In this document: positions 1 to 26,331 of the stretch, piece after piece
How the letters are laid out: every line of letters begins with the position of its first letter
Numbering within the stretch: the stretch's first letter is position 1
Source of the DNA: Amia ocellicauda
Taxonomy: Eukaryota > Chordata > Actinopteri > Amiiformes > Amiidae
Assembly (NCBI RefSeq): GCF_036373705.1
Contig: NC_089863.1
Location: forward strand, 8,283,357 to 8,347,356
Length of the DNA stretch: 64,000 bases
Reading direction: 5' to 3'
The notes under the pieces: generated by a model
The model's input: only the letters and a program-made list of their open reading frames with translations
The model's database searches: none
What the model was told of the DNA's origin: nothing
Translations under genes and position numbers: made by a program

Positions 1-56
1 AGATCAGAGCAATGATGGCTGCACCCATGGGCGAGCGTGACTCTCCTAAAGAATAA

Positions 57-287
57 GGAAAATGCAAGAAACACTCTGATTATACATGTATCATACATGT
101 CAACAGAGAGGTGAATGAAAGAGTACAGCCTCTCACAGCAGCATGGTTGAGTAAAGAAGTTGAAAGAGCCCTAAAAGGGATAGAATATGATGGAGTTGAC
201 CGGACATTAGCTGAAGCGGAAAGCAAACACAATGTCAATGAAGATCGCCTGGTCATACTTGATTCTAGAGAAACTGGCGCAAATTAA
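57..287 (+). other. Unassigned open stretch, possible partial exon or transposon relic
   Basis: A frame stays open from a stop at 54-56 to a TAA at 285-287 with no in-frame ATG. The translation from about position 99 looks protein-like: charged and hydrophilic, with segments such as LSKEVERALKGIEYDGVD and ending RETGAN. It could be the last exon of a gene beginning left of the window or part of a decayed mobile element. I do not recognise the family and no splice acceptor clearly defines a left edge. Confidence 0.3.
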
Positions 288-772
288 GGTGATTTCATTT
301 AATCAAATAAGATCGGCTTTCATCTGACATGACATCGACACTAAAAGATAACGGGTGCTGAAAACAAAAGTACCACAGGGCAGTAACGTGCACAGCCTTG
401 CGAGGGCAGTGGCTGAAACAAATGAAGGGGCACTTCTGTTCCTGGCACCCCCCCTCTGCATGTCCCTGTCACAGGGGACTGTAACCCTTGGATGTCAGGG
501 ATCCCGTCTTTTCATTGGGCACTTTTCACCACAAGCTTTTTCTCACCAGGGACAATTCATCACCAATTGACATTGTTTACCTATTTGATTTAGATAAAAT
601 ACTGTTTTGGAATTGTAGGACCTTTTTATTGATAACTCTAATGCATCCCTCTGTTGGCTTGTTTTCCCCAGGGTGTTGACTGTAATCATTCTGCACAGAA
701 TATGACCATTTATTCAATGAAGGCTCAGACAGTCCACAGTCAGTGTAAAGGAAACCTGTTTGCATGATCTAA
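288..772. other. No gene seen
   Basis: Short open frames here have no recognisable domains. The stretch ends at the AAT-type tail of the LINE that follows. Confidence 0.5.

Positions 773-836
<64 letters not shown>
773..836. repeat. (ATT)n microsatellite, LINE 3' tail
   Basis: About 20 trinucleotide units immediately abut the conserved LINE 3' motif, so this is a tail repeat and not an independent microsatellite. Confidence 0.9.
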
Positions 837-3660
837 TCTTGGCAGACACCCATATCCAGGGTGACTTACAACATAAGTGCAAAAATACAGTGAAGTACAA
901 GGCATCAATAATAACACATTCAATTTAGCTAAAACAGCAATTCAGAATAATACATTTTACAAATTCCAATTTACAATTTACACAAGTACAGTAAGTGACT
1001 TCCTACATCCTGGATGGTGAAAGCTAAGTGCTGTCAAGATGTAGGGTCACAGACAGGGGCTATGAGATAGGGAGCAAGGAGGAAAACAATCAAGAACACG
1101 AGAAGCATAATAAAACTGTGAAGTGCTATCTAGCAGGGATAGAGGACTAATATTACAAGTACTGTCAGAAAAGATGCGTCTTCAGTAAGCGCCGGAAAGA
1201 GGTCAAGGACTCTGCTGTTTTGACTTCGGTGGGCAGGTCGTTCCACCATTTAGGGGCCAGGGATAAGAAGCAGTGGCTCTGGAGGAAGGAGAGTGGAGAG
1301 GAGGCAGAGTTAGTCTTCTGGCACTGGAGGAGCGCAGTGGTCTGGAGGGGATGTATGGAGAAACGAGTGTCTGAAGGTAGCTTGGTGCAGTGTGGTAGAG
1401 ACAGCGGTAGGTGAGGGTCAAAGTCTTGAACTGAATGCGTGCCGCTATCGGGAGCCAGTGGAGGGAGCGGAGCAGTGGAGTATTGTGTGCGAATCGTGGC
1501 AGAGAGAATACCAGACGAGCCGCAGAGTTTTGGATGAGCTGGAGCGGCAGGTAGTAGATGCAGGCAGGCCGGCCAGGAGGGAGTTGCAGTAGTCCAGACG
1601 GGAGAGGACCAGTTGACTGGACGAGTAGCTGAGTCGAGTAGTCGGTGAGGAAGGGACGGATCCGGCGTATGTTGCTTAGGAAGAATCTACAGGTGCATGT
1701 CAGCGTGGTGATGTGCTGGGTGTAGGAGAACGCAGGATCTAGAGTGACTCCTAGATTTTTAGTGTGGTGGATTCCAAGGGGATCGAGATGAGGAGGTCAG
1801 CAACGGGTGAGGAAGAGTTGGGGAAAAAGAGGAGATCCTATTTGGAGAGGTTGAGCTTGAGGTGGTGCGAGTGCATCCAAGCGGAAATAGCAGACAAGCA
1901 GGAAGAGATGCGAGAGGGGATGAGAGGGTCAGAAGGGGGAAAAGACAGGAAGATCTGAGCATCATCAGCGTAGAAGTGGTAGGAGAAACCATGGGAAGCG
2001 ATGAGGGGGCCCAGGGAGCGAGTGTAGAGAGAGAACAGGAGCGGGCCTAGGACGGAGCCTTGGGGAACGCCTGTGAGGAGAGGTTGGGGGGTGGATGAGG
2101 AGCCTCGCCATGTCACTTGGTAGGACCGGTCACTGAGGTAGGAGGAGAACCAGGTGAGAGCAGTCTCAGAGATCACAAGGTCAGCGAGGCAGGAGATGAG
2201 GATGGAGTGATCGACGGTGTCAAATGCTGCAGAGAGGTCAAGGAGGATGAGGACTGAGGAGAGGGAGGCCGCCCGAGCACAGCTGAGGGAGTCAGTGACA
2301 GCCAGGAGAGCCGTCTCAGTGGAGTGAGCTGTGCGGAAGCCAGATTGCAGAGGATCAAGGAGTGAATGTTGGGACAGAAAGTCCGAGAGCTGATGGTGGA
2401 CCACCCTCTCGAGAGTATTGGAGAGGAAGGGGAGTAGGGAGATAGGGTGGTAGTTCTGAGGAGAGGTGGCATCAAGGGTTGGTTTCTTGAGCAGTGGGAT
2501 GACAGCAGCTTGTTTAAATGCAGAGGGGAAACAGCCAGAGAGGAGTGAGGAGTTGAGGAGGGAGGAGATGAAGGGGAGAAGATCAGGAGCGGTTGCTTGG
2601 AAGAGATGAGAAGGGAGAGGGTCCAGGGCGCATGTTGTGGGTTTGTGACGTTGGATTCGAAGAGAGATTGGAAGTAAGACTTCTTGGCTGAGGTGAGAGA
2701 GGACGAGAATGTGGACAGTAGAGAGCGGTAGAGTTTAAGGGCAGCTGGGAGTTTGGTCCTTTTCCACTTCTGTTCGGCGGCACGTAGACTAGTTCGGGTT
2801 GCGCGGAGAACAGCAGAGATCCAAGGCTGAGGAGGGGAGGGACGGGCAGGACGAGACGCGAGAGGACAGAGAGAGTCAAGGGAGGAGAACAAAGAGGAGG
2901 TAGCACAGTTGACAGATAGATGGGAAAAACAGTCAATGGAAGGTAAGAGAGTGAGGGCAGTGAAGGCAAGGGTGGAGGGGGAGACTACGGCGGAAGGTGA
3001 CAGAGGGAGTGGGTCGGGTGGGGAGGGAGGAGAGGGAAAGGGAGAAGGAAATTAATGGTGGTCCGAGATGTCCATGGGTGTCAAGGAGAGTGTTGAAGGT
3101 GAGCAGCCTCTAGAGAAGATGAGGTCTAGCTGGCGGCCAGCCCTGTGAGTGGGGGGAGATGGGGAGAGAGAGAGAAGTTGAAGGAGAGGAAGAAATCCGG
3201 CACAGTGGGAAGGGTTGGAGAGGTGGATGTTAAAGTCTCCCAGGAGGATGGTAGGTGAGGACAGCGAGGGGAGAGAGGAGAGAAGAAAGTCGAGTTCATC
3301 CAGGAAGGAGGTGTGGACCAGGTGGACGGTATAGAACTAGAAGGAAGAGGTGAGAGGGAGAGGTGATTTCCACTGCATGGAATTCATAGCTGTGGGTTGA
3401 GATAGAGGAGAGAGAGGGGGGGGACAAAGAGAGAGGATAAGGCAGCAGGGGTGGTAGAGTTGTCTGGGGAGATCCATGTCTCGGTGAGAGCGAGGAAATC
3501 CAGAGACTGGTGGGAGGTGAAGGCGGAGATGAAGTCGGCCTTGTTGGAAGCTGAGTGGCAGTTCCACAGGCCTCCAGAGAGTGGAGTAGCAGGGAGGGAG
3601 AAGGAGGGCTGGAGAATATTCCAGTAATACATATTGGGAGGAATACTTACATATGAACCA
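773..3660 (-). mobile_element. L2/Rex1-like LINE, 5'-truncated and frameshifted
   Basis: The element lies on the minus strand. From its 5' side, an APE-type endonuclease remnant is visible near 3550-3000 (LALTETWI). A reverse transcriptase follows, translated from about 2404 to 1838, with [35 protein letters not shown] and the catalytic YADD box (as FYADDAQ). The C-terminal region runs to about 1050. The 3' end carries the motif complementary to a GGCAGAC...CCAGGGTGACTTA tail at 840-870, followed by an (AAT)n microsatellite at 773-836, which is the usual 3' tail of this family. Stops and frameshifts break the ORF, so it is not active. A second copy lies at 30340-31745. Confidence 0.88.
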
Positions 3661-3946
3661 GCATGTAAACGTAATGTGCAGAATACCAGGTGAATATTTG
3701 TTGTGGGCCATCACTCAATGTAAGTTTTGTTGTTGTACTTGATGCATATTAATGTTTAACAAAGGAATGACATATTACACAATTTTGTAATCTTTGGGTA
3801 TATGGTTTAGAAATCAGCAGTTTATTACAAAAAACATTGCACATATTCCAAAAGGGTCAAAAGCTTGAGCTAAGCTATACATTGATATAAGCTATTCTAA
3901 AATGCCTTTAATCTTTAATCACGACCACCGCAGCTTTTTCACTTCG
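3661..3946. other. No gene seen
   Basis: AT-rich sequence with no supported ORF or repeat assignment. Confidence 0.4.
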
Positions 3947-4140
3947 CTTGCCGTGCTGCTTGCCGTGCTGCTTGCCGTGCTGCTTGCCGTGCTGCTTGCC
4001 GTGCTGCTTGCCGTGCTGCTTGCCGTGCTGCTTGCCGTGCTGCTTGCCGTGCTGCTTGCCGTGCTGCTTGCCGTGCTGCTTGCCGTGCTGCTTGCCGTGC
4101 TGCTTGCCGTGCTGCTTGCCGTGCTGCTTGCCGTGCTGCT
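3947..4140. repeat. 12-bp minisatellite, 16 perfect copies
   Basis: The unit CTTGCCGTGCTG is repeated 16 times (3947-4138) without a visible mismatch. It is GC-rich inside AT-rich DNA. Because 12 is a multiple of 3, several frames stay open and give artificial Leu-Ala-Val-Leu, Cys-Cys-Leu-Pro or Arg-Gln-Ala-Ala repeat peptides. I see no reason to call these proteins. Confidence 0.97.
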
Positions 4141-4142
4141 TC

Positions 4143-4520
4143 AGCCCTGCTCCCCCCGCCCCTGCATCTCTCCAAAAAGGAAGAACAAAAGAGAACCCCC
4201 CACTGTTACACAGGCAGGCTTTTTAAAGTCCACTGCCTTTGTTTCAGAGAAGTGGGGAGGAAGGGAAAAGGTCCAAGGATTGGTCGGTCAGGGAACCAAT
4301 ATCCAGTGCGACAGGTGCCCTGCGTTTGGGCTAACCAGCTCGTAGATAAGCAAAAATAACCCATGCAATCAACTAATTAAGGTAATGATAACAGAAACAA
4401 AAGACAGTACAAGTGTTATAATAAACAATAGTGAATCAAAACACATAATAACCAAAGAAAAATAAACATCCCAAAAATAAAACCATGTAAATCAACCAAT
4501 AATAAATTAACCCATTAACA
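4143..4520. other. No gene seen
   Basis: GC-rich flank of the minisatellite grading into AT-rich DNA. No gene or classified repeat recognised. Confidence 0.4.
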
Positions 4521-4524
4521 CCAA

Positions 4525-4940
4525 TAAGCGAGCTCGAGCACCAGCTGCAACACTATCCAGTCTATTTTTAAATGTTCCCAAATTTTCAGCTTCAACCACA
4601 TCGCTGGTTAGTTTATTCCAGATTTTGACTACTCTCTGTGTCTTGAATGCCTTGAAGCCCAATTTCCATTTGTGTCCCCGGGTGCATGTGTCCCTGCTGA
4701 TCTGGAAAAGCTCCTCTGGTTTGATGTGGTCGATGCCCTTAATGATTTTGAAGACTTGGATCAAGTCCCCACGTAGTCTCCTCTGTTCCAGGGTGAAAAG
4801 GTTCAGTTCCTCAGTCTCTCAGTAGGACATTCCCTTCAGACCTGGAATAAGTCTGGTTGCTCTCCTCTGAACTGCCTCTAGAGCAGCGATATCTTTCTTG
4901 AAGTGTAGAGCCCAGAACTGTACACAGTATTCCAGAGTAT
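4525..4940 (-). mobile_element. CR1-like LINE 3' fragment
   Basis: Minus-strand translation gives the C-terminal tail typical of CR1/L2-group ORF2 proteins: LIQVFKIIKGIDHIKPEELF, then [20 protein letters not shown], then [19 protein letters not shown]. Continuing toward 4940 it shows the [12 protein letters not shown]-type segment. The same sequence recurs on the plus strand at 20115-20640, which confirms a dispersed repeat. Only the extreme 3' part remains. Confidence 0.85.
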
Positions 4941-5444
4941 GATGAAGTTTCAGTTGTGCCTTTGAGATATTGCACAAAGTGTACTTTCACATTTTGTTTT
5001 ATATTGTATGTAAAAGATAATTCTCCCTGGGATTTAGGCATTTGATAGAAAGTACTAAGGTGTATAGGACCTTCAAAACATTTTAACTGAAGAGATAGTA
5101 AAGTTATGGGGTCATGAAAAGCGATTAAATATACATTTTTGACCAAACGTACTAAGGTTGATATTGCATTACTGAAATGCTAGCAAGTTTCACATGGAGA
5201 ACTTTTATTTTTAATTTATTTTTAAGTACAAGTATGAGATCAAAAAACCATTGAGAGAAAGTAGTCCCCATGTTCGTGGAACAGAACCATATTTCTAGCC
5301 ACATTCTGAATTACAGCTTATGGCCGGCCTACAGGTAGGCTTATCTAAAACTTAAATATTTCATATTTTAAAACTGTTATCTTACAATGTGTTGATGACT
5401 CAAAACAGTGAACCCAAAGAACATTTCAGAGTCTGGAGAGAAGT

Positions 5445-5570
5445 GTTCAATTCATCCAGTTCATTGTTTAATTAGACCAATTAAGGAGCCAAGATCTGGG
5501 CTGCAATAAAACCCAGCAGACACTGCAGCCCCCCAGGACTTGAGTCTGACATCTTTGCCATAGATAATCA
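5445..5570. repeat. Probable unclassified interspersed repeat
   Basis: The stretch with AATAAAACCCAGCAGACACT and CTGCAGCCCCCCAGGACTTG resembles a short dispersed repeat I associate with fish genomes. I cannot name the family and no second copy is obvious in this window. Confidence 0.3.
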
Positions 5571-5948
5571 TTACAAGCAGATAAAGACCATTAAACTAAT
5601 CCTCACACTCCCAGGAGAGGCTTTGTTTGGGAACAGTATAAAAAACTGTGGTAAACGGTCTCCCTTTCAACACAAAAGACCGTGCATTGTTAATGACCCA
5701 TGAGAAGAAGTTGAATGCAAGGAAGTCAAGAAGCACAGAGCCATTTAAAAAATAGTTTATTCTTCAATTATTTATCATAGCTTAATCAAGTAAACAAAAC
5801 TGAAAAAAGTAAACAAATGTTTAACTGTGGAACGGAGGAATGCAAACATGAAACCAGTTTGGCAGACATGAAACATTATAGCCTGTTTGGCCCCTAACCA
5901 AGAGGCTTTCCTAATCATATCAAAACCAGTTTCCTCAACACAAGAGGC

Positions 5949-5956
5949 TATTTAAA
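5949..5956 (+). promoter_or_regulatory. TATA-like box of the CXCL17-like gene
   Basis: TATTTAAA lies 77 nt upstream of the start codon at 6026, placing a likely transcription start near 5980 and a short 5'UTR of about 45 nt. This fits an inducible secreted-protein gene. It is assigned by position only. Confidence 0.5.
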
Positions 5957-6025
5957 GGGACTGTGAGGACATTTTTCTGAGACAGTTCCTCTGAGCTCAA
6001 GGCATTTTGACCTCCACAAACCACG

Positions 6026-8215
6026 ATGTCTAAGCTGGTGTTTTTGATGCTCCTGGTCATCCTAGCAGTCATCTGCAGTCAGTACACAGGTAAGGAAAGA
6101 TATAAACCATTTAATGCCAGAGTCAGTTGGACTTAGAAGGACTTCATTTGAATCACAGTTATAAGTGTATAGAAATACAATCTTCTCTGTATGTTATTAT
6201 TGATATTTGCATGTCATTTTTCCAAGTAATTTTCTGACCTTTTCTTTAAATGGGGAGGGTGTAATATGCATCTTCTCATTGTGAACTCAGGTTTACACTG
6301 ATATACTGAGTATGAACTCAGTTCTATTCAGTAGTAAAATAATAAAAAGTTATTATTGTTCGATACATATTCTTTCTTGTTGGTCACGTGACATATGTAT
6401 AATACTGGACACTGAGCTGAGGGAATAAAATCACAGGTAGATCAGTAAAGAACCGAAAAGGAATGGTAATGAAATGAATCTATTCTCGAATGCAAGTTTT
6501 TCATTAGGCAACTCCTAATCAGTAAATAAAAAAACACCATTGTAGTTCAGCATTGTGAAGGTCAGTATTGTACTGACCATGGTGAGAGACAATATATTTA
6601 AATACAAAAATAAATGCTGTATACTAGACTTCACCACAGTCAAATCATATGATGCATTACTTTACTATAATAGTATCTACAAAAACATTACCACAGTTCA
6701 TTATTGTACTAGACCAGTCTTTAGTAACCTAAAGAATAGCTAACCAGCTCATACTACTAAAGTATACTACATGGTTCAGTAGCCTAAGAAAATGTCATTT
6801 CCTTTGGATATGACAATAACACTTTGCATGGGAGGTTCCCCACCTGCAGATTCATACACTTGTCCACAGAGAAGGGAAGGAGGTTTTAATCCATGGGTCT
6901 GTGCATCGTGTAATGCATAATTAATCTGCGTGTTCGTTTTCTTTCAAATCAGTCACATAAAACTGCTAACTATTTCCACTACATGAATAATAAAGGCTGG
7001 TTGTCCCTAACAGAGTAAAACTGCTGTATTGAATCATCATTTCTAATTAAAAAAATGTTCAGCTGATGATTTGAAAAACATCTCAAGTATTCGAATGGCC
7101 GTAGTTTCATTTTACTTTTAGTTGAATCCAGTCATCCCATTTAGTATACCTGTACTGTTACCCTGTCCAAGAAAAGTTTAGATTTGTCCTCTGAAGTGCA
7201 CAAAGATCTAATAAGTTAATTTCACTGTGAATCGCCGTGTTTTGGCAGGACAAAATTGGTTTAAAAAGATTTTACGGGTTAACATGGTTTTAATAAAGGT
7301 TACCGTAGAAAACTGCAGGAAATGTAATCAAGAACTGAGAGGATAATATTATGAGAACCACTGATAAATATCATGTGCACAGTGTGAGGGTGTAGTTAAT
7401 GTAGATAAAGAGGTGCATTTCCTTACATGTTTTCTACCCGATTGAATGATTTCCAGAAAAATATATTTATTTTAAATAAAAGTTTTACAATGTATGAGAA
7501 ATGTATTTAATACATTGTACATGTTCTGTGTTTACCATTGACTTAAAGGGGAAAAGCACACTCACCAAAATAAGTGGTTTATATGTACTTCTGTGTCAGG
7601 ACTGTATACATAAAGGAGCTGTGATTTTTCTGTGGCCACAGTACAGCTCTTCTGTGTTTCAAGATGTGAAGGTTCGACACTAACACAAAAACGACTATAG
7701 AGTACAGGATTTGTCTTCCCAGCGGCAGCTCCATTGCATGGTACGGTGACCGATGGCTCCATGTTGACCGGGACACTTTGAGACAGGATGGGATTTTAAA
7801 TGGAAAGACACATTTCAATCAGTCATTGTTTACACCATTGCCAAATTGAGTACCTTTGCACTGTGAAAACAACATCTAGATAAGGCTCATAACACCTTAT
7901 CATTCATTTTTATTTGTTTGCCATTATTAATATGATAAAGTCATTGATTATTTCCTGTAAGAAATTATTACAAATTCTGTGCTCTTTAGATGTCGTCTAT
8001 TCTGCTATCTGGTACATGTTGGAATGACAGAAAAGCTCTCCTTTGGGATATTTACAGTAGCCCTGACTGAGGTGAAAGTCATGAGTAACACATGAGTACA
8101 TATAGACTAGTCACTGTGGTGAGGGAGCTTAGTTATGCTTTAAGCAATCTTCTGTGTGAAAAATACAAATTATAGAACTAGCTTCAACTTAACTTTCACC
8201 AATACTAACTTACCT

Positions 8216-8284
<69 letters not shown>

Positions 8285-9289
8285 CCATCTCCCTCTCCCT
8301 CCTTCCCTCTGCCTATCACTCCCTCTCCCTCCCTCCCTTCCCCTCTCCCTAACCCTCACCCTCTCTCTCTCCTTCTCCCTCTCTTCCTCTCTCTTTCACT
8401 TCCTCTCCCTCACTCTCTCTCCCTCTCTACCCCTCTCCCTCTATCCTCTCTGCCCAGTTGACTCCCACAAGGGGATTGGGAACCGACTGTTCAAGAATGA
8501 GTGCAACTGTAAAGGTGAGGATTCTTGTCCTTTGTTAGTCTGGCCGGTCCAGCAGACACTCTTTTTGTGTCCTGTCCTCTGGATAAGACAGTCTAAAACT
8601 ATGCTGAGCAACTTGTATAATTTGAAATACTGTGCTAAATTGAATCTTGTTATTGTTCTTGTTCTTCTTATGCATCATCATCGTCATTTTCTAACCACCC
8701 AAAATGCTTCTGATATACTTTGATTCTATTCTCAACTCTAGTTTTGCCAAATAACAAGCTGAACTGTCGAAAGGGGTTAATTCCACGCACCCGCGATGAC
8801 AGGTTTCAATTGATGGAGTGCCTCTGCAAGAAGCATCGGCACGGTGAGTGTGGTGGACATTTTCAGGACTAGAGAAAGTGGTTCTGGAGCTCCATCAAAA
8901 GGTCAATAATTAGGTTAATAATGTCCTGCAATGGTTTTACAGACTACCTAAATCCTATAGGCCTATACTTTATTTTAAAAAATGATCGATTATATGCTAT
9001 CACATTATTATCCTGTTAGTTGATGGTGAGGTTTTGAATGAGTGAAAGCCAGTTTTGACCAACAAAATACCCCCATAAAATACTAGTATTAAATCCAACC
9101 CCAATTCCCTTGGTTTGAGTCCGGATGGAAGTTGGTTGTATTGCTTTTCACTACTTTTTGGCTTTTAGTCTTTGATTTGAAGAATCTCTTGTTCTCTGCA
9201 CAGAACTCGACAAGAAGCTGGATATTCCCCTGCAAAACACATGCAAGAAACTGTACAAAGGATTTTCTATTCCCCTTCCCCTGGCCTGA
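6026..9289 (+). CDS. cxcl17: CXCL17-like secreted cysteine-rich basic peptide (4 exons, 102 aa)
   Basis: Coding exons are 6026-6089, 8458-8514, 8742-8843 and 9204-9289. All introns are GT-AG and all are phase 1; total 309 nt. Residues 1-22 form a hydrophobic signal peptide (MSKLVFLMLLVILAVICSQY). The mature part is short and strongly basic, with six cysteines at 37, 39, 49, 67, 69 and 88: a C-N-C pair, one single, a C-L-C pair, one single. It ends GFSIPLPLA. Mammalian CXCL17 has the same plan: signal peptide, two C-X-C pairs separated by a basic loop, a late cysteine and a tail ending in Leu-Pro-Leu. Human CXCL17 also has four exons and lies near CNFN, matching the cornifelin-like genes downstream here. 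In mammals it is a mucosal chemoattractant, and recent work reports GPR25 as its receptor with the C-terminus as the activating part. The cysteine spacing does not fit ordinary CXC or CC chemokines. Another small secreted peptide remains possible. Confidence 0.72.
8218..8453 (+). repeat. (CT)n microsatellite extending into a 235-nt polypyrimidine tract before exon 2
   Basis: A pure (CT)n run at about 8218-8281 continues as an almost uninterrupted C/T-rich tract up to the acceptor (tgcccag) at 8457. It forms an extremely long polypyrimidine tract for exon 2 of the CXCL17-like gene. Confidence 0.9.
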
Positions 9290-10640
9290 GACAAGGACTG
9301 GAGTCAAGTTCATGCCGGCTGGAAAGCCAACACCACCGTGTGCAAGACAATGTCACTTGTATTTTACTATGATTTCTATTTCACTCGCACAGACACTTTT
9401 TTAATATTTTAATATTTTGTTTCAAAGTGGGGACTACGTGTCCTCAGGCAGTTTCCTCTACCAAGACAGATATTGAAATTAGGGTATTTCAACCTTTAAT
9501 TAATTTAAAATCAGGGAAGGTTCATTGTGGTAATGCCATTGAGACTGATAGTTCATCTTCTGATTACATTTAATTACTTCGGATTTACAAAAACAGCAAT
9601 TGACTGAAGAGGAATTCAAATTTGGCATCCTAAGAATTGATCAAACTTGATTTCTCTATGCAGGAGTTTCAAGACATCCCCATTACTACAGTTATAGCTT
9701 CAGTTTAATATGTTCATTTACAATATTCTGGGAAACAGTTTCTTGAAAACATCATATTTATATATATTATATATATAGTTGTATTCCAAAAGCCAAAATA
9801 TTTCTGTCCTGAATGCATTTGTAGACTTTTTCTGAAAATGAATTCAGCAAACTTTGACTTCAGTTTCATACAACTGATTTTGCACCAGTGCTCTGTATTT
9901 TGCCAAAAGGCCATAGCCTATTCTGTACTGTGAAATTCTATCTATTGCATTGTTTTTATGATTTATTATGGTTTAATTACATACATTATCCTGCTGTGAA
10001 TGTATGAGGTATTTTAGGTGATTAACAACTAAGACAAAGTGTACTGCCGTTTCTAGGTGTAAGATCATTCCTGAAAAAACATGATATAATGATTTTTGTA
10101 GTGCGCTGTGAGGGACTGAAGACTGCAGAAGACAAAGGAAGGTACTTATTAAAACACGTTTTATTGTTAGGGCATTAAGTAGATTTATGGTAACGTGCAA
10201 AAATATATTTGTATTTTTCTATAATATGTGTGCTGAATTTATACATTTTCATTAGATTATTCTTTTAATTACAGTAGCTCTCCAACTGCACTCAACACAC
10301 ACACACTATGATGAATAAATTGATTTCAGACACATTTCCAACTCAGATTTCCCTGGCTGTGTTTTGTGCAAAAGCCTTCTCAGATTCCAGACAAAATTGG
10401 TACTCTATACAGGTTTGACATACAGGAAACAAGAATTCACTGAAATAACAATAATGGCGGTCTGATATTTCACAACACTTGGTACTGAGCCTGGGACTGA
10501 AACAAAGGGTGACAAGCCGATCTCAATGAAACCTGGGTGACCTTACCACTGCATTTTACAGCATTATACTAAAAACTAGAGTCTGTTGTTACTGTTTGTT
10601 TATTCTTCAAATAAAATGTTGAAAACCTTAAATTAGTGCT
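9290..10640 (+). other. Probable 3'UTR of the CXCL17-like gene
   Basis: AT-rich DNA after the stop codon. AATAAA hexamers at 10314-10319 and 10610-10615 are candidate polyadenylation signals. Which is used, and whether the 3'UTR is this long, cannot be told from sequence. Confidence 0.4.
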
Positions 10641-13600
10641 GTGTATTTAAGTGGGTATTTTGTGTATAGAAAATCGTTATGTCTGCACAAAATTGTTTTT
10701 ACAGTTCCGCTTCATTTGGGTTGTCTGGTTGTCATCACTTTAGAGGGATTTAGAGGGTCTATATGCATTAAACTCCATTTAAATTTAGATTTAAGATTTC
10801 TAACAGTGGAGGAGTGATTATCTTTAAGTGGAAACTTGCAAATCATACAAATTAAATGAAATTAAGATTTACAATAATTCTCCTTGAATTAATTTTCATA
10901 AAAATATATCATAAATAAATGGGAATAATATTTAACAGAATATATGCTAAATCTTATTTTATACTTATTTCTCAAATTCTTAAAATTGAATTAAAATTGA
11001 ATGTTCAATAATAATCAATTTACTCCTGCCAAGAGTTCTTCCCAGAATTTAATTTGCATTCATTGATAACAGAATTGCATGACTCTACCAGCCTGAAAAT
11101 ATACTGGCTTTGTTCATTCCTGGCTACCATTTCCAAATCCATTTATATAAAAATTAATGAAGGGCCATGTAGCTGACCTTATTCTTGACTCTACATCTTT
11201 CTTAGCCTGATCAGACTGGTCAGTGTGATATAATATTGCAATGAAAGCAAAGCCACATTTTGGTGAATGATAACATTTTTAGGTTGACACCAAAAAATGC
11301 TGCTTTGATTCAATAACATACTGTATCGACCTTGCCTTTTTAAAGGTTGCTAATAAAATAAAGCACTTGAGACGGAGTTTTTCCAAAACAAAAACTGTGA
11401 TTTATTAATCTGTACAAAGGTACTTCCCTTTCCCCCTGATTCCTTCAGATTCTCTAAACACACCAATGTTTTTCTCCAGTAAACTCCCACTCAACTCAAC
11501 TCAACTCCTAACCCGTCACCATGCCCTTATATATTCCCCTATCTGGTGACTCCCTCCCGTCCAATTACCGCTCTTCGGGACGGGGGGAGCCACACAGACA
11601 CACTTACCCACAAATCCCTTCCAAACCCGACAGAATAACACCCCACATGTAACATACATTCACACTCATGCACACACACATAAACAGACAGTCCCCGAAC
11701 TGACCCACCCACCCTGCATACACTCTTTTACATCCTACCCCCACCTTTGCGCTGCCCTCCTGGCACATTCACACAGTCACCCGCCAGGATTGCTACAATA
11801 TGAAAACCTGGTGGTGTCACAATCAAATGCACCAAACTTTTGCACTCTTTTGTAACACTCACCTGTGTAAAATAGTCTTAAAAAGGCATGTTTAAGACAG
11901 TAATATAAAAGAGTGAACCTAAAGAATCACAATAGCAGGACTGTACTTCCTGAAACTGAGAACACAAACTTAGCAGACAGATGCTTTTCTTTGACTCAAA
12001 TGATATGATATGTTTTTGTATTCAGCCACTATATTTTTATACTACATTTTTAACTATACTGACTGCCTTACATTACACAATATTTCTGAGCTAACATATC
12101 ATGGTAGGTACTCTTACGACAATCAATCACAACTAAAAGCTAAATAATGTGTAACCTACCATGAAGCAATAAACCTTTTCATAAACAGTATGCAAGGTTT
12201 CTCTTTTCAATTTTGCCTAAAGCCATCAATGGGCATTAAAATGAACCCCTGGGTATCTAAAACATAAATGGGGGTGATTTGTTCCCATGATGTTTTTCAG
12301 AATATTAACATCCTTTTGAACTGTGACTGGTCTTGTTGCAGCAAGCTCGAAACCCTCCATCAGAGACTGCGTCACTATCGGCCTTTATCTCTGCTGCTTC
12401 GCTGCTCTTGCCATCCAATCCCCAACAGACCATCTTCAAGTCTTCAGGAATATGCTGTCGATTGAGGTAAACTGCTTTCATTCTCTCCCAGGGACTTTTT
12501 AGATAGATTCTTGTTCCATGAGTTTCCCATGGCCTTTTGTCAACTGCATCCTTTCAGGGGAAAATATAAAGTAGATGAATTTATAACCCTGTTTTTAACA
12601 AACAATCCTTTTCGATATTATATAATACATTATGTATTTAGCCAAAGATTTAAGATTGCAATACTGTTTGTTAGAGTGTTTTCGTTGTTAGATTTCCTGC
12701 AAATTAAAGACCAAAATAAATTAATAGATTAAAAAATGCATTTTGGTTCTATTGAAATTCTGCTTTATTTGCTTAATAACAGGTTGTATTGACACATTAA
12801 CCATTAGAAACACTTTCCCTATTCAATTAATTGTGGTTTTCCGCCGCTTTATTCACAAAGATCAGACAATGACTAGTTTTCACAAGTGATAGAACTGTTT
12901 CCTTATTTTCTGTATACACATCTATAAATCATGCAATCAATGACAAAATTAAAATATGTCTGCAGTGTTATTCTTGCAAACATTATCACGTGAAGGATCG
13001 CTTACCTTCTAACGCAGGCACGAGGTATTGTTAGTTATAACTGCTCTTGTGAACCCAATCTTCAACATTTTCCCTCTAGAATGCACAGCTTTGTCCCACA
13101 TGGGATTTCACATCAAGTTTGCAAAAGAAGAAGATAAAAGATTCCAGAAGATTCTTATTAATGCAAAACCAGAAGCAATTTTTTTATCTAATCCAGAAGG
13201 AATCCTTGTAATTTATTGTAATTTCTTCTCCAAATAGTTAACAGGCTTCCACTTGTGTGAAGCTAGATTCTGTTTTTTTAAAGATATTGATGCACGACCA
13301 TAATAATCAATAACATTGGTACCACGCATAATTATGGGTTAACAGAACAATGTAAACAGTCATTGTATGTCAGTGAGAAGAAAAGGGCACGCCTCACTAT
13401 ATTACAGTTTCAAACCAAACAAACTAAATAATGTAAGCATTTAGACAGTTCACATTTTATTTATTTTTACTCATAATTAACACTTACTACATGTGGAAGC
13501 CTGTCTTTGTTCTAAGGTGGAACCACATGTTAATATGTCTAGAGCTGAGTTATTTACAGAATAATACAGAATGTTATTGTTATGTCTAAACACACTGGGT

Positions 13601-16600
13601 CAATTGCGACACAGAAATGATCTCTTTGTAAGTCCTTCAGGTCTAAGTTAGTGAGCTGATAAGTCCCAATTTTAACAAACCTCCTCTCTCTCACAATAAT
13701 CTCCAAAATGTTACCATCTGCAACAAACTCCAGATACTCAGAGCTGCCCCCTAGAGGTTCCTGATATTATGGACTAACTCAAACCATCAAACGAGGAGGT
13801 CTAACCCCCCCACCGATTGACCATACTAACTACAGTTTAGTGGAAATTGCAGTTAATGCAGCACTGCTTTAAAACATTTTATTACATTTGTCACTTTTAT
13901 TAAATGCACATGTTGTACCACTAAATCAGAACATTCAATTACAATTACACAACTTAAAGCCGATCCTGTGCCCAGCGTACAGTGGTTGACTTTGGCTTCA
14001 TCACACTGAAAGAATATGGTATCGCCAGGATCTCCACATGCATTATGGGAATTTGGTGAAGCATCATAATTTGTGGTAAACTTGCACATGCATAACCCAC
14101 TTCAATTCCAAATGGCGTCATGGGATGGCAGAACATGGCATTACAGATGCGCTCAGATAAGTCTGAATCCTGTTATACAAAACCCTACGGGTCTTGCCAA
14201 GTGCCAATCTACACTGTGATGTTTCTTTGGCATATCTGGGTATATCGGATATAAATAATGTGTAAAAGCAAAAACAACCCCGTTTTGCTGTTCTAACTGT
14301 ATTTGGTCACATGATCTAAAATGCCTGCATGACTCCATATCTCCAATGATCCAGATCAGTTCTTGCAATGTGGTCTCATAAAGTTTAATATTAAGTTATG
14401 TTACCTCGCTTTCAAACCAACCTGAATCCTAGCAAGTGTGGGTATGGTAGTGAACCTAATTTGCAGCACAGAAAATCTGTAATAAACGCATTAGGTTACA
14501 AACAAAAAATAAATAAAAACAAATGTAAGGGTTGGAAGGTGGCCTGAAAATTCTACTAGATTTCTCATCAGGTCTGTTTTAATGATATTGTTATTATGGA
14601 GGAGACAAACAACCTTTAATTATCATTATGATGCTATGGGGGGGGGGCATTCATGAAGATATATTACCTTGAAAAAATGACAGGATATTCCACATATCTC
14701 ACTCATTGTTTTGCATATTGATAAATTGCATTGATAGGCTTTCATTCAGTCATTTAATAAAGGATTGAAGCTTGAGACAGACACCTATGATGTTTTGTAG
14801 GATAACTTGATTTCCTGATTTCTGTCTTAAATGCATTTGAATCAGGAGAACTCCAGCAAATATTTTACTATTATCATATTCTTATGATGCGTTTGAGCTT
14901 GTTGGTTTATTCTGTTCATCCTGCTGAAGTCCTCTGGGTTAGTTTTGCATGACCTTGCTGTTCTGCTGCAGCCATGTCAGTCTGTACTTCACGTGCAATT
15001 GCTAAGCCAGTATTGCGACAGAAGTTGAGCTGAGGGTGCCTTTCAACAGATCTGTTGCATTTGGATTTCATTTTGTTTATGCATGGAGTTTAAATCTCAA
15101 TAAAACAACAACAAAAAAGATATTGCTCAATAGATTTTTATGCTTTCTGATAAACCATAAAGGATTGTGTATCGGGAGTTAAATGCTTACAATTCCATGC
15201 TTAAACATCAGGGTCTTGATCTTGATTAAAGATCGGGGTGCAGATCTACCCAGACACAGCGCACTGGATCACTGGATACAAGCACTGGTGATTTTCAAGA
15301 CAGCACTTGCCAAACGTTTGTTGTTGATGTGTAACCATCATGGAGTTCTAATGGATGTCTAAGCTATTTTCCTGAACATGACTGGCATGACTCATAGTTG
15401 CCGTGCTCAACATGAGCGATCTGGCATACAGTGCAGTGATTCATATGTACCCTGGCCCTTACCTGTTCTCCATGTTGTGATCAAGCTAGGCGAAATGCAC
15501 CACTGTCCTCTGCCCACATTTTGCATTTTAGTCAGTAGTGAGGTCAATGTCAACAACCCTGACAGCACTACAGTGAAAAAGATGGAAGTTTATGGAGCTG
15601 ATAGGGAGACATTTTCTCCCCCAACTGATAGGCGCACAAGGAACACTGCATGCCTGATTCATTCATTCATTCATTCATTCATTCATTCAGAATAACACCA
15701 AAGTAGTTTATTCAACTATAACAACTCATCTAAAGTTTTTTTGTAAAAAACATACTATCATATAGAAGAGCATATAGAACTCGACTGACATCATTTTGGT
15801 TACTTTTGCTACCTTTGTCTTTTGCTCTATGTATGGCCTTGTATGAAGCGCAGGGTTTCTTCTGTCAATCGGTTTTAATATCCCCTATGAAAAACTTGTA
15901 TTACTGGTGTTTGGTATTTATTGTTTACTCTGCTTTGTTTTAAAGGTAAACAAATATAATACATTACAAATTAATAGAATGATAATTTATTTCGAAAGTA
16001 AAATGTAAATGTTAAAACATTTTAAAAGCTTTTTTTTTTTTTTATGTAATAGCTTTCCAGTAGACACAACCCGCATATATTTGGAGGTAGTATTTATAAA
16101 GTGGTTTAAAGTGGCATCTAGTGTTAAATTAATGTCACTGCATCCCAGAACTTAAAGGCAAAGGGCGTGTGGTTATATTCACCGGTTGTGTCACCGGTGA
16201 GCCTTTTTGATCACCGAACTGTAGATGAAGTCACCAGGTGGCGCTCAGCGAACTGCAGTTAAACATTTCGATGAGACTCACCATAAACATTGTTGACAAC
16301 ATGGCTGTCAATTCTGAAAGTTTCAGGTGGGCTGTGGGAGACCACATTTACCATATGAGTGCACCCTGTGGATGCAAATCGCATGAGACATGGCAAGCAT
16401 AAAATATGCCAATCATATTATGAAGATATAATACAATTAATAATGTATGCATATGATATAACGCAATTTTTAAAAGTACATCAGGAATAGGCGGTGGAAC
16501 TCGGATATTGAAACAATAATAACGTTAAATTGCAGAAGAGAAAATATTAGTTTTAAAGATAATTGAAATAAAGCATGCTGGGAAAGAGTGGAGAATATTT

Positions 16601-18425
16601 AGTTCATTTTTAACTTGCAACTCGTCGCCATTTTTTTTTTCCACCAAACTGTGGTTTTAATCCCCCACTGGTTGATGTGCTTCCGCCACATGAATAAAAC
16701 CAGCGCGCAGGGGTTGAGAGAAGCAATTAACACAATTCACAATATACAATTTTTTATTTGCCATTTTTAATTGCAATTGTAAATTACAGCTCATTTTAAA
16801 TGAATACATTTGTTTATATATGCATATATTTGCATTGGAAAGTAAATATCAATGAAGCATACATGCTATTTTTGAAAACCTAAACTCTTGGGTGGGTGGG
16901 GTGGGGGGGAATCACATTACAGCATTAAGTTATTTTGTTAACTTCTGCGTTGTGTTGAAAGCAATAGTAGACGGCCTGGATTATTCACATGCCAAGCGAA
17001 TACAACCTGAAGATTTAAAGAGACAAAATGAACTGAACATTGGATAAATGTGCAACCAAATAGCACGCTAATCAAGTTGAACCGGAAAGCATCCAGATTC
17101 CCTGATGATTACCTGTTTTGGTTTCTGCACAAATAAGTCATCAACAACACAATGCATTGTAATGACATTGTAGTGTAATTTGCTATTATAACTCTTAATG
17201 AGTCAGAGCAATTTGAGCTCTGAATTAAGATCACTAGTCAGCTATACATGGTCACTCAATCAAACATGCCATGTAGTGATATAAAAATGGATGACAATAA
17301 ACAAATGGTGTCATTGTTGACAGATACTCTGTCCATAAAAATCTGTATCAAACTACTCTTTGATATCAGAACTATAGATTTGAACTTTATATGTCCAAAA
17401 AACTGTTCTAGGTACAGTGGACACAAACCTGTGTTTTTAGATGAATCTCTAATAGTAAAAGTGAACACGCTATGAACTATGTATTGTTTCTTTTCTTTTG
17501 TTCTGTTCCACGTGATCATGATTAGGCACCCATTATTGTGATGGAGAGAGAATGTATAAAAAATATGTAGTTCACATTGTCTAGAAGGTTCCTGGGTAAC
17601 GGCGTTAAATCGATGAGATAACTCACAAGGAAGTCAGAGAAAGAATGTAAACGCAAGGTGAAGGAGTTAGTCGAAGGTTTGTTGAGAAAATGGGTGCAAC
17701 AGCCCAGCTTAACTAATGTGATGCCCAACCTTGTTGTCAGACAGTGAAGTGTGTGTGTAATGACTCTGATAGAATAGTATATAAAGCTCTATAAAAATGG
17801 AGGTCATAATATCTTGCATTTATACAGTGCCTTTTTGTAGGTCTAGTTCAAAAAGACATGACCTGGAAAGAACTGAACTGGAGAGAACTGGAAAGATCAT
17901 GTGACACCGCCGGGGGGATATCCACAGTGCTGCACTTATTATATAGGCGGGGTCTAGAGGGATAGTCTCATGAAGGCTGGGTTCAATGGTTTTGTTGAAG
18001 GGTTGCGTGTTTGCAAGCTTAATATCACCTACTAAAATTATCCAATAAGTGTGTTTAATTAATTTGATAATGACAGTCAAGAAGGGTATTTGGTAAGATA
18101 TTGCAGTAGCTTAGTGGCATGTAAATAGGAAAGTGTCAGTGAGTAGTGCATGTTTGTTTCACCGTTCTAGACAGATCAATAACAATATTTCAAACTGTGC
18201 TTGTCACTGCATTGTTAAGTTACAAGATAATTGAAGTATATACATGTATAATGCTTTGTTGTTCACTGATTAAGGGGAGAGTACAATATTTGATCAAAAC
18301 ACTCTAGCTACTGACACCACCCGTCTGCAATGATTAACATTCATAATATAGATAGTCTGTCGTTAATGAGATTGAGATGAAAACACAGGAATATCATCTG
18401 AAGTGAAGATAAAGCCAACAAACTG
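10641..18425. other. Intergenic region, no gene recognised
   Basis: No supported coding exon on either strand. An (ATTC)n run lies at 15657-15689. The C-rich block at about 11340-11800 differs in composition from its surroundings and may be an unclassified repeat. Short open frames near 14150-14370 and 17250-17520 show no domains. Much of the rest is AT-rich. Confidence 0.5.
15657..15689. repeat. (ATTC)n microsatellite
   Basis: About eight tetranucleotide copies in a row. Confidence 0.9.
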
Positions 18426-18445
18426 CTGAAATTGTTTATGTATTG

Positions 18446-18451
18446 TTTATT
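18446..18451 (-). terminator. Poly(A) signal, cornifelin-like gene A
   Basis: AATAAA on the minus strand, about 730 nt past the stop codon. The surrounding sequence (TATTGTTTATT on the plus strand) recurs at the same place downstream of the other two copies (33082 and 38987), so the 3' end was duplicated with the gene. Confidence 0.65.
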
Positions 18452-19175
18452 ATGAATGAAATACACCAGTGCACAAAATACACAGATTATATGTACAGAT
18501 TTCAATCAATCGTAACTTTTCTGGTGCTTCTATTTATCATTCGTTGGAAAGTATTGTTTCAACAAATGACTGCTAAACTGACACAAAGAGAAAACTAATT
18601 ACAGATCAGAGAATGTAAATCATCGTCTATTACAATTAATATATACAGCGAATGTAACCAGATTCATTAGTTGAACATTAATCTTTCATCCACGATTTAT
18701 TAAAAATGGGTGTAAATAACAAATGTAACAGCAAAGAAATAGTTCCATGGTACCAGAATATATTTTTGGAGTTTATAATGAATTAGACAAACACAATACT
18801 GGCCAGTCACTTCCTTCCAATACAGTTTAATACCTAAACACCTGGTGCTCAATACCCCCCCCTACCCCTGCGTTCGTTGCTTCACATCCCACCTCCTCCC
18901 CAGTTACCACCTCTGCTTGGATCCTTCACCTTACTGAAAAAAGGGTCTGGGGGTGGGGGGGAGTGGTCAAAAGGTCTGACCCTGTCAATCCTCAATATAA
19001 TGAACTACTCGCACTAATTGACAATCGGGGGTTGTAAACTACTGCAATGACATATTAGATATAATTAAAACAACAAGAAATATTAATGTCTGAGGACACA
19101 GAAGTTGCAAATGACATTGAGGGTTTAAGCAAGGCCTTCAGTTGGTCCTGATGAATGCTTTCTAAGTTTGTAGTT

Positions 19176-22100
19176 TCAAGCATTGTAGTTTCCGGCATTG
19201 ACATTGGGCAGCGCGTGGGTCAAAACTACTGGCTTGGCACGCATCTTTATCTCTCTGGAAACCTGGCACCAAGAGCAAGCGTAGCAACAACAGGCGTATA
19301 GACAGTCATGACAGATAGTGTCCTGTGAACAAAGAATAAAATGAAAGTCAATATACGTCAATATACACCATTCACTACTGCCAAGTCCCAGGTGAAAGCT
19401 GAAAAAAAAAAATCTTGATCTCATTTGTGGTCTTTATACACCAATACAGAAAACACTTAGATTGAAGACCAGCCTCATACTGGTTTCTGTGAATGGCATC
19501 TACTAACAGTCAACATTAGTGTAAACTTTAAACAGCAAAGTAAACTTGTTAACACATGCCTGCATTACCTGGCTGTTAATAAACAAACAGGTCCCCCTCA
19601 AAACTAAATCCTGAACCAAATAAATAAAAGAACAACAGAAAGAGAATGTTAACTCATATAATAAACTGCGTCCACTGGATCGCCTAATGTGGGCCCAGTT
19701 TGGACAAGAGGCAGAAAAGAAAATCAACATTATGTGCTAAATATATCCAATCCAATATATGATTCAGTTAATTTTATTAAGGTGGGGAGACAGGTAAATA
19801 CCTTGATCCCATAGCGCTGTCGGGTGACTACCCTCATAGTCAGAGCGATGGGTGGTATAAAACCAAACATGTCCAGAAGGGGGAGACAAAGGCATTCCCC
19901 ATATTCGTGGACAGTCTTGCAGGCAAAACAGGGACCACACCAGAATGCTAAACAGCCTGGAAAGCAAGAAAATGATATTTGTGTACTGTCTTTAAACTTT
20001 AAGTGTAGATTTTGTTTTTCTTATTTAGGTTACAGATCGCTATGTGGTGTTAATAGCAAAACCCAAGCAGGTAAACAGAATGCTAGGGTATATTGTCCAA
20101 AGTGTAGAATTTAAAACAAGGGCAGTAATGTTAAGACTGTACAATGCACTAGTTAGAGCTCATCTGGATACTGTGGACAGTTCTGGGCTCCACACTTCAA
20201 GAAAGATATCGCTGCTCTAGAGGCAGTTCAGAGGAGAGCAACCAGACTTATTCCAGGTCTGAAGGGAAAGTCCTACTGAGAGACTGAGGGAACTGAACCT
20301 TTTCACCCTGGAACAGAGGAGACTACGTGGGGACTTGATCCAAGTCTTCAAAATCATGAAAGACATCGACCACATCAAACAGAGGAGCTTTTCCAGATCA
20401 GCAGGGACACACGCACCCAGGACACAAATGGAAATTGGGCTTCAAGGCATTCAAAGCGTCGCCCTGGATAAGGGCGTCTGCCAAGAATAAAAATAATAAT
20501 AATAATAAAAAATAGGAGAAGCTTCTTCACACAGAGAGGCGTCACAATCTGGAACAAACTCCCCAGCGATGTGGTCGAAGCTGAAAATTTGGGAACATTT
20601 AAAAATAGATTGGCCTCCTCTCATTTGTAAACTTTCTTATGTTCTAGATCTCCACTTGTCTGAATATGATGTCCAGCATCATTTAGGAACTGTGTTTAAC
20701 TAATACAAGTGTTAATAACAATCTTTTACATTCCCAAGTTTCAGTTGTTTATGCCAGGGGTTCTCAAACTTTTTCACGCGCGACCCCCAAAAAACGCCAC
20801 GCACACATACGCACATAACATAAGGATTCACACCGCAACACAAATGTAGACACGCTCAGTAGATCATATTAAGATAACTAATAAAAGAACCCTCATCAAC
20901 TATTTCATATTAATGATCTGTTCTCTCATGTATGTTTATTATTAGTAAGTTAAGTCTGAGCAACTTACTCATTTAATGAGATAGGTGGGCCTGCTTTTTG
21001 GAGCACAACAGCTGCATCCTGGGTTTGATCAGTTTGATTTGGTTGCACCATTGAGATGTGATCTGTATTTGTTTTTGATATATGTCAGTTCATATGGAAA
21101 AGAGTTCAGTGGAAAATGTTGCCTCACATAAGTAGGTTGATCCAAATGGAATCACTACATCCATCGCTGCTTTGGATAGTCCTGGGTATTCCTCTGCAAC
21201 TGAAATTCAGAATTCAGCAAGTGTGGTTGCGGCAAACATTGCCTTTAAGGTCCGATCACTGGACAGCTCCATCAGCGTGTCCTCCAGGTCGGATGACAGG
21301 CGGGTGAGAACTTTCCCCCGCGAAAGCCACCTGACCTTGGTATTGAAGAGCAGGGCTTCATATCTCTTGGCAGAGGATGGCAAACAGCCTGGTGTTCCTG
21401 GGATGTGATTTAATGGACTTTACTATTTTAATAGCACTTTGGAGAACCGTTTTACTCTGGATTGAGTGATTTACTAGCGAGAGCTTCTCTGTGTATAATA
21501 CAGTGCATAACATTAATGTGAGGTGTCACTTGTAAAACTCTTTTAATCCTTTCTTTTTTAACCCAACATTGCTCCTGCACCATCTGTCCCATCACACTTG
21601 TCCCAAGAGAGGCCCTCCTCTTGTATTTTGGTATCCATGTCATTGCCTGAGCAAAAATTTTCCAAAGCAAAAGAAAATAGCATGTCATCTTGAAGTGTCC
21701 CATTAAAACTGTATCTGATGAATACAAGTAACTGTGCAACGTTTGATATGCCCATTGACTCGTCTAGTTTTCACCCTTCCCTCGTTCAATAAGCTGGTCT
21801 CCCCAATTGTACGTGGCTTTTTGGCTTGTGCAATTGGGTACGCTACCTCATACGATGCAATTTCCGCTTTGGCGGGACTGTGGCTTGCAGAGTTATCGCT
21901 TGCTTTTGACCACATAGCTCTGCTTCCTTTCAGCGGAAAATACATGTTAGTTTATCGACATGAGAGGGATGCTTGGTCCAATGCCTTGAATCCAAACTGT
22001 ATGAATTCTTCTTGATATTTTTGACGTTTGGATGGCTTGTCAGGCTGGCCTTACCCTTGCGTTTCTCATTTCTCATAGGCTTATTTTAATTGGAAGTTGA

Positions 22101-23235
22101 TTGCTTTTCTGAAGGAATGCTTTCATCAGCTGTTTGAGAGAGACTGTTGTCATGTAATGTCTTCTCATTTGTAGAGCTACGGATTAGCCACCGATCCATG
22201 TTGTAGGCTATGTATATTTGCTAGCTAACTAAAAGCGTGCACACAGCAAGAATTGTTCAAGTGTTGCTCCGTAGATGTTCTGTTAACCTGCGCAACAGTT
22301 TCAACCAACCAGTTTTCATTCTGTGACATGAAATATTAAAATATTAAAATTGTACATATTTAGCCTATATTTAGTACATATGTATCCCCCTTATATATAG
22401 TATCACATTTTTCAGGTTTATTAAAAATAGCACTTTTTAATTTTAATTTATTAAATCATCTTGCAGCCCCCCCAAAAGCATCTTGCGACCCCCACTTTAA
22501 GAACCACTGGTTTAGGCATTCTGGTGGGTTGAGAATAAAAATCCATCCGTTCATAGAAGTTACACTTTCTCATGTGAGTTTACTGAACCTTTAGAGAGCA
22601 ATGGCTGTCTGTTTATTGCATGATATTGTGAACTGGATGTTAGCCCTCTTCCTTTGTAGTAGTTAAGATAAATCATACTCTGAGTATTAGATATTCAAAC
22701 TCAAAAACAGAAATTGACTGGATACAAATCTGCAATGCATTATCTACTAAAACATTTGATATTGCAGCTTCCTGTTTGTGACACGCTACACCTCTGCTTA
22801 AACGGAAACTGTTACAGACTGTTATCAAACACAGACAAACAATGTGTCGGGCTCTGTAACCAGCAGGGGTTGCCAATTCATTCTCACAGCATCTCTGTCT
22901 CCCAGCAGAAGTAATATAGTCACTGATTAATATTCATGAGACATGGTTAAGTATAGACTATTCTGGGCCTCCCTATTGAATCTTTAATCTTGAACAGCCC
23001 AAACTACTGCCAGAAGTGTTTGCGTTCCCTGGGCCAACAGACGCAGATGCAAAATGTAGAAAACCAGTCCAAGATAAGACTCCACAAGAGCACAATAGGA
23101 CGGGACAGACAGTGGAAAGGATCACTTACAGGATTCAATGTCTTCACAGCAGTCGCAGATGCCCGTGCTCCACTCCGTGGATTCCATTTCATACATGAGT
23201 GGCTGGGGCTGCTGAATTACTATTTTTGTAGCCAT
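19176..23235 (-). CDS. cnfn: Cornifelin-like PLAC8-family protein, copy A (135 aa)
   Basis: Coding exons are 23130-23235, 19802-19956 and 19176-19322 (106, 155 and 147 nt). The untranslated first exon ends at 29253, and the start-codon exon begins at an acceptor at 23248. The protein starts with [12 protein letters not shown], then shows the PLAC8 signature: [17 protein letters not shown], a Cys-rich [11 protein letters not shown] segment, [19 protein letters not shown], and [13 protein letters not shown]. Human cornifelin has closely similar RERY and CQMARELKIR segments, closer than human PLAC8. Cornifelin is a component of the cornified envelope. Fish members of the family are small cysteine-rich membrane-associated proteins of epithelia with poorly known roles. 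The third exon carries YACCCYACS where copies B and C have a single cysteine before Y-T/S-C. The introns are enlarged by hAT, Tc1 and CR1 insertions. Confidence 0.88.
20115..20640 (+). mobile_element. CR1-like LINE 3' fragment with nested insertion
   Basis: Plus-strand copy of the element at 4525-4940: it encodes [33 protein letters not shown] and, after an interruption, a [20 protein letters not shown] segment. It lies in the intron between coding exons 1 and 2 of cornifelin-like copy A. A second repeat at about 20456-20518 splits it. Confidence 0.85.
20456..20518 (+). repeat. LINE-tail repeat nested in the CR1 fragment
   Basis: GTCGCCCTGGATAAGGGCGT, then CTGCCAAG and (AAT)n. This is the same tail motif as the L2-like LINE at 773-870, here as a short solo insertion. 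Confidence 0.8.
20755..22509 (-). mobile_element. hAT DNA transposon (ZBED5-like), decayed, with target-site duplication
   Basis: Ends are CAGGGGTTCTCAAAC and the near-inverted TTAAGAACCACTG, flanked by the 8-bp sequences GTTTATGC (20747-20754) and GTTTAGGC (22510-22517), which differ at one base. An 8-bp duplication is diagnostic for hAT. Minus-strand translation gives ZBED5-type transposase pieces in order: [10 protein letters not shown] (near 22000), [52 protein letters not shown] and, near 21300, a [13 protein letters not shown]-type segment. Frameshifts and stops break it. It lies in an intron of cornifelin-like copy A, in the same orientation as the gene. Confidence 0.88.
22797..22912 (-). 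other. Intronic block conserved among the three cornifelin-like copies
   Basis: The stretch from the AACACAGACAAACAATGTGT segment through CAGCAGAAG recurs in the same intron of copies B (about 34933-35040) and C (about 40368-40496). It is non-coding. It may simply be duplication residue or may be an intronic control element. Confidence 0.6.
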
Positions 23236-23475
23236 TCTTGTCTTTTACCTGTGGACAGAAGAGATAAACTGTTAAGAAATGTGATATGTCAGGAATCCAC
23301 AGGACCACAGTAAATCAATAAGATGTTTGTCTAATTGAAATAACATAATATGGAGAAACAGGAGACAGGGATACAGAGGATCCCCAACTCAGCAACTGCT
23401 CTGAGCCTTGAGCAAAAATAGGTGTGGTTGTTTATAAGTTGAGACCTCAAATGTGAACAAAGAAAAGTCTATATA

Positions 23476-24188: not shown

Positions 24189-24196
24189 TATATATA

Positions 24197-26296: not shown

Positions 26297-26297
<1 letters not shown>

Positions 26298-26331
<34 letters not shown>
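26298..26331. repeat. (CA)n microsatellite
   Basis: About 17 dinucleotide units. Confidence 0.95.

Follow-up and report, generated by a model that had tools for sequence, protein, structure and literature searches.

An earlier note on a 64-kb window of the bowfin (Amia ocellicauda) genome, the window being the whole stretch of 64,000 nucleotides analysed here, described a fish CXCL17-type gene in four very small exons, and the locus thus raises the question of whether such a gene exists and to which family of secreted peptides it belongs. The note's premise, that CXCL17 has long been called mammal-restricted, agrees with a 2024 survey that describes it as mammal-specific (PMC10792014), but it has been overtaken by an account published in January 2026 of two zebrafish CXCL17 genes, both of whose products activate zebrafish GPR25 (PMC12905490). 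According to the same account, lamprey CXCL17s reported earlier were IL-17s. No other report of non-mammalian CXCL17 was found in the searched literature, works naming CXCL17 together with coelacanth being left aside. Nor did the search find any work that treats the bowfin genome and chemokines together; the main text of the zebrafish article mentions no bowfin, gar or sturgeon, and 'holostean' and 'teleost' do not occur in it either, while its species tables may list a holostean (PMC12905490).

The four exons lie where they were first read, on the forward strand and with lengths of 57-102 nt (Table 1). All three introns are of the GT-AG type and interrupt the reading frame in phase 1, with donors gtaagg, gtgagg and gtgagt and acceptors cag, tag and cag, and the spliced frame is open for 102 residues before a TGA stop, encoding MSKLVFLMLLVILAVICSQYTVDSHKGIGNRLFKNECNCKVLPNNKLNCRKGLIPRTRDDRFQLMECLCKKHRHELDKKLDIPLQNTCKKLYKGFSIPLPLA. 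The GC content is 45-49% in the exons and 36-37% in the introns. The hydrophobic N-terminus, MSKLVFLMLLVILAVIC, which includes C17, is signal-peptide-like as judged by composition, in agreement with the signal peptide proposed before, and the whole product is under 200 residues long, as described for fish CXCL17-like. A long (TC)n-derived tract near the end of intron 1 may be an unusually long polypyrimidine tract for the exon 2 acceptor. A tblastn search for exon paralogs elsewhere in the window gave nothing better than E 0.83.

Table 1. Features of the window, numbered from its first nucleotide
Feature	Position	Strand	Description
Transposon-like piece	1165-3714	-	by the look of its translation
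Tandem repeat	3946-4141		16 perfect copies of the 12-bp unit GCTTGCCGTGCT; several frames are open
Candidate TATA-like box	5949..5955	+	TATTTAA, 77 nt 5' of the ATG; a consensus match, not proof of a promoter
Exon 1, coding part	6026..6089	+	64 nt; ATG, signal-peptide-like start MSKLVFLMLLVILAVICSQYT; donor gtaagg
Intron 1	6090..8457	+	2368 nt; long pyrimidine-rich tract at 3' end
(TC)n-derived tract	8216-8451		236 nt; stops six bases short of exon 2
Exon 2	8458..8514	+	57 nt; VDSHKGIGNRLFKNECNCK; first CXC pair, C37 and C39
Intron 2	8515..8741	+	227 nt
Exon 3	8742..8843	+	102 nt; VLPNNKLNCRKGLIPRTRDDRFQLMECLCKKHRH; C49 and second CXC pair, C67 and C69
Intron 3	8844..9203	+	360 nt
Exon 4, coding part	9204..9289	+	86 nt including stop; C88, tail GFSIPLPLA, TGA
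Candidate polyadenylation signal	10314..10319	+	AATAAA, consensus match; others are ATTAAA at 10148 and AATAAA at 10610
Transposon-like piece	23624-25557	+	by the look of its translation
Transposon-like piece	29617-30333	-	by the look of its translation
Transposon-like piece	30487-31881	-	by the look of its translation
Transposon-like piece	47398-49006	-	by the look of its translation
GPR4/GPR68/GPR132-like receptor	52956-about 53580, 54880-55311	+	two pieces; apparent intron of about 1.3 kb between them, with trinucleotide repeats
PTGDR2 (CRTH2) ortholog	59526-60785	-	ATG at 60650; single uninterrupted reading frame

A reader seeking a peptide of this kind might have joined chance splice sites into something that is not a gene, or into one that has decayed; after all, the gene is known from a sequence model, and the peptide was not found in public protein sets. 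This explanation was confronted with a null of 8000 first-order Markov random windows of equal length and dinucleotide make-up, searched on both strands for four-exon models that have a signal-like start, six cysteines spaced 2-10-18-2-(17 to 20), of which two fall in exon 2, three in exon 3 and one in exon 4, and a tail of the form [LIVMF]P[LIVMF] followed by at most two residues. Because this pattern was devised with the peptide and the zebrafish spacing already in view, the resulting counts test fit to a pattern and are not those of a blind search: 63 of the 8000 random windows contained a matching model when any GT/AG was accepted, which lends the chance explanation some room, but none did (0/8000) when GTRAG was demanded at all three donors. 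The real window holds 19 matching models on the forward strand and none on the reverse strand, and the two forward models that survive donor and pyrimidine-tract filters differ solely in the choice of ATG. An extra residue at the tail of the peptide, discussed below, could signal relaxed constraint, yet the frame is intact, the exons are richer in GC than the introns, and a TATA-like box lies at a fitting distance. A chance or decayed assembly is thus extremely improbable, and the four-exon gene, as a sequence model, is confirmed as more than chance.

What family the gene belongs to is indicated above all by the arrangement of its cysteines. The earlier note had pointed out two CXC pairs (37/39 and 67/69), a basic body and an Ile-Pro-Leu-Pro-Leu stretch in the tail, all of which are present, the computed pI of the mature peptide being 9.66-9.77 over five assumed cleavage sites. 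It had passed over cysteines 49 and 88 and the alanine that follows IPLPL. With these included, the mature peptide has six cysteines (37, 39, 49, 67, 69 and 88) in the order CXC-C-CXC-C, and it ends I-P-L-P-L-A, 14 residues past the last cysteine. The same order is described for the second of the two zebrafish genes, Dr-CXCL17-like (si:dkey-112a7.5; UniProt A0AB13AB19), which has four exons and three introns and encodes a protein of 95 residues with a signal peptide, a mature part of pI 10.0, cysteines C36, C38, C48, C66, C68 and C86, and the end L93-P94-L95 (PMC12905490). By this published description, the bowfin cysteines are offset from the zebrafish ones by one residue for the first five and by two for the sixth, and both genes, moreover, have four exons and three introns and specify a signal peptide (predicted for bowfin), a mature part that is basic, and an LPL that closes the protein or lies close to its end. 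Six cysteines randomly placed in 78 residues would reproduce the zebrafish gaps to within one residue with a probability of 3e-6, and when two CXC pairs plus two lone cysteines were imposed this happened in 26 of 400000 trials.

The two peptides also differ. That of bowfin is the longer (102 as against 95 residues), has 14 rather than 9 residues past the last cysteine, and carries one alanine beyond the LPL with which the zebrafish protein ends. A C-terminal Xaa-Pro-Yaa was among the discoverers' search criteria, although the rule is listed in their text for CXCL17 and not for CXCL17-like homologs (PMC12905490); the bowfin peptide ends PLA, and the motif sits one residue inward. With the cysteine order CXC-C-CXC-C leading to CXCL17-like and not to CXCL17, the gene is probably the bowfin ortholog of fish CXCL17-like and would encode a secreted, basic, GPR25-directed chemoattractant, an assignment drawn from cysteine positions, exon count, charge and tail, with the zebrafish protein compared by its published description and not by alignment.

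The assignment sharpens and partly overturns the first reading, by which the gene was a fish CXCL17-type gene with the layout of mammalian CXCL17. With its four small exons it does look like the gene of a GPR25 ligand of the CXCL17 type, but its match is fish CXCL17-like and not mammalian CXCL17. The comparison with the latter drew on 24 sequences, namely 23 of 85 listed proteins and the human sequence. In all of these the cysteine order is CXC-CXC-C-C, with gaps of 2-23-2-26-7 in 16 of the 24 and at most three residues off these values in the other eight, and the penultimate residue is invariably proline (24/24), as opposed to the bowfin end P-L-A. The Pfam CXCL17 model (PF15211) found no match in the bowfin peptide, while the human CXCL17 control gave 6.7e-53. 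A profile comparison with mammalian CXCL17 did no better than shuffles: built from the 24 sequences and run against the mature bowfin peptide, the profile scored 14.6 over seven residues around a CXC, a value that 17 of 150 full shuffles reached, as did 34 of 150 in which the cysteines were kept in place, and a whole-protein comparison with the same set (score 14.2) was likewise not above shuffles. This lack of detectable similarity agrees with the published account, in which the fish proteins could not be found from mammalian ones and Dr-CXCL17-like is without similarity to mammalian CXCL17 (PMC12905490).

Could the gene nonetheless be orthologous to true CXCL17, which mammals and zebrafish (as zgc:158701) have in common? 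Zebrafish and mammalian CXCL17 are, like the bowfin product, small, secreted-looking and basic; their six cysteines likewise include two CXC pairs, their tail is hydrophobic and contains proline, and both are GPR25 ligands, as the bowfin peptide would presumably be. Moreover, in alignment the bowfin stretch KGFSIPL looks similar, by eye, to ASFALPL at the mammalian end, a lead that runs against the CXCL17-like reading: the bowfin tail may be taken for FSIPL with three residues added or for LPL with one. Dr-CXCL17, however, is described as having the order CXC-CXC-C-C and as adjoining cnfn, pafah1b3 and ceacam1, in a setting that resembles the human one (PMC12905490). On both the cysteine order and the penultimate proline, zebrafish and mammalian CXCL17 thus part from the bowfin peptide, and the chromosomal neighbours reported for them are others than those recognised here, which are PTGDR2 and a GPR4/GPR68/GPR132-like receptor; cnfn, pafah1b3 and ceacam1 were not seen in the window, of which only 6 kb is visible upstream of the gene. 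Together with the absence of a Pfam match and a profile score within the shuffle range, these differences make an ortholog of true CXCL17 very unlikely.

Canonical CXC chemokines share with the bowfin peptide a CXC and a secreted look. They differ in that the bowfin peptide has two CXC pairs and six cysteines and matches no Pfam family. Pfam includes the canonical chemokine model, and none of its families was reported for the peptide at E values up to 10 with the HMMER filters on. Searches of the PDB gave no match with the bowfin peptide and none with one mammalian CXCL17. A word-based search of 5.8 billion proteins turned up no candidate sharing three 5-residue words with the peptide, and since this collection includes Amia and gar proteins, the result means that no sufficiently close relative is present there rather than that fish are absent. 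The lack of a homolog and of a Pfam family among the matches, together with a terminal residue that departs from the Xaa-Pro-Yaa rule, would also fit a gene encoding a six-cysteine secreted peptide of some other, undescribed family, convergent on a CXCL17-like appearance and inactive on GPR25; zebrafish CXCL17-like, itself described as lacking similarity to mammalian CXCL17, suggests that such layouts may arise repeatedly. Convergence would nevertheless have to account for all six cysteines at nearly the same positions as in Dr-CXCL17-like, an equal number of exons and an LPL-type tail, and it is judged unlikely. The bowfin peptide looks like a real member of the family described in 2026, one without a match in the searched protein collection.

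The surroundings of the gene were also compared. Dr-CXCL17-like is flanked by ponzr3-6, ugt5g1 and cldn7a, neighbours that differ from those of mammalian CXCL17, and its discoverers suggested that CXCL17-like is perhaps of independent origin and perhaps confined to certain fish (PMC12905490); in the searched literature ponzr and cldn7a occur together in that article only. Six-frame Pfam scans, with stops read as X, covered about 48 of the 64 kb (4500-8600, 9300-23600, 25600-29600, 32000-46700, 49000-52900, 55300-59500 and 60800-64000), the intervals outside being 1-4499, 8601-9299, 23601-25599, 29601-31999, 46701-48999, 52901-55299 and 59501-60799. In the scanned part no family reached its curated cut-off, and no ponzr/PLAC8, UDP-glucuronosyltransferase or claudin domain was seen. 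With the gene 6 kb from the edge of the window and with domains broken by introns, this is a weak test of neighbourhood. The reading of stops as X did recover PTGDR2 against the PDB (not Pfam), a check that is uninformative for genes in many pieces because PTGDR2 has one coding exon. Weak matches to DUF2689, Atrophin-1, DUF3915, DUF7351 and Apis_Csd all fell below the cut-off and were set aside.

Other contents of the window can be described in their own right. The PTGDR2 ortholog is identical to its best named match, the public Amia calva PD2R2, except for a 28-residue block missing from the public protein, a gap that is probably an annotation fault, and next among the named matches is spotted gar (82% over 88% of the query); the near-identity marks the window as bowfin, from A. 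calva or a close congener. From the look of their translations, the transposon-like pieces resemble LINE reverse transcriptase and Tc1-type transposase, with a gene derived from hAT or another transposon as a further possibility.

If the bowfin gene is indeed an ortholog of CXCL17-like, its mode of action can be sketched from the zebrafish protein. Dr-CXCL17-like binds Dr-GPR25 with a tracer Kd of about 7.5 nM, acts in arrestin recruitment/activation with an EC50 of about 20 nM, attracts receptor-bearing transfected cells, and is left with almost no activity after removal of the last three residues; in a structural model the C-terminal carboxylate of Dr-CXCL17 lies against a pocket lysine, with a similar pattern for CXCL17-like (PMC12905490). 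For bowfin, transcription, receptor and activity are presumed. The bowfin peptide, its six cysteines probably forming three disulfides, would be held on cell-surface sugars by its positively charged body once the signal peptide had been removed, and its hydrophobic, proline-containing tail SIPLPLA would enter the GPR25 pocket on leukocytes and draw these cells in. The additional alanine would either be accepted by the receptor, as apela suggests, or be taken off by a carboxypeptidase.

Apela (Elabela) is a short peptide hormone with another body and the apelin receptor as its main receptor, yet like the bowfin peptide it has a proline-containing hydrophobic C-terminus that runs one residue past an Xaa-Pro-Yaa core. 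It ends VPFP (PMC13197934), and both it and apelin are reported to activate certain non-mammalian GPR25 receptors weakly (PMC12905490). An end of the bowfin type therefore need not be fatal to activity. Against this precedent, a review on human receptors mentions a screen that showed no binding of apelin isoforms to GPR25 (PMC13197934).

The earlier note held that the locus, if correctly read, shows the CXCL17 ligand to be ancient, a conclusion that does not follow when the match is CXCL17-like, a paralog with other neighbours and perhaps of independent origin; the case for the antiquity of mammalian CXCL17 rests on another, already published zebrafish locus (zgc:158701). The bowfin locus bears on a different matter. 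The split of bowfin from the teleost line predates the teleost genome duplication, so that CXCL17-like, if the bowfin gene is its ortholog, is no product of that duplication; the family would then be extended to a non-teleost fish and placed before the holostean-teleost split. A further proposal, possible though rather doubtful, is that CXCL17-like represents a second lineage of GPR25 ligands older than both the split and the duplication, whose tail in bowfin is capped by an extra residue, making it either a pro-ligand activated by removal of that residue or a ligand that docks on GPR25 in the manner of apela. As the bowfin peptide was not found in the searched protein collection, gar, sturgeon and basal teleosts may have more such genes that annotation has missed. 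With the fish CXCL17/GPR25 pair newly in print, the bowfin gene bears on how the second paralog, CXCL17-like, arose, and its peptide would offer a naturally altered version of exactly those tail residues that GPR25 is thought to read.
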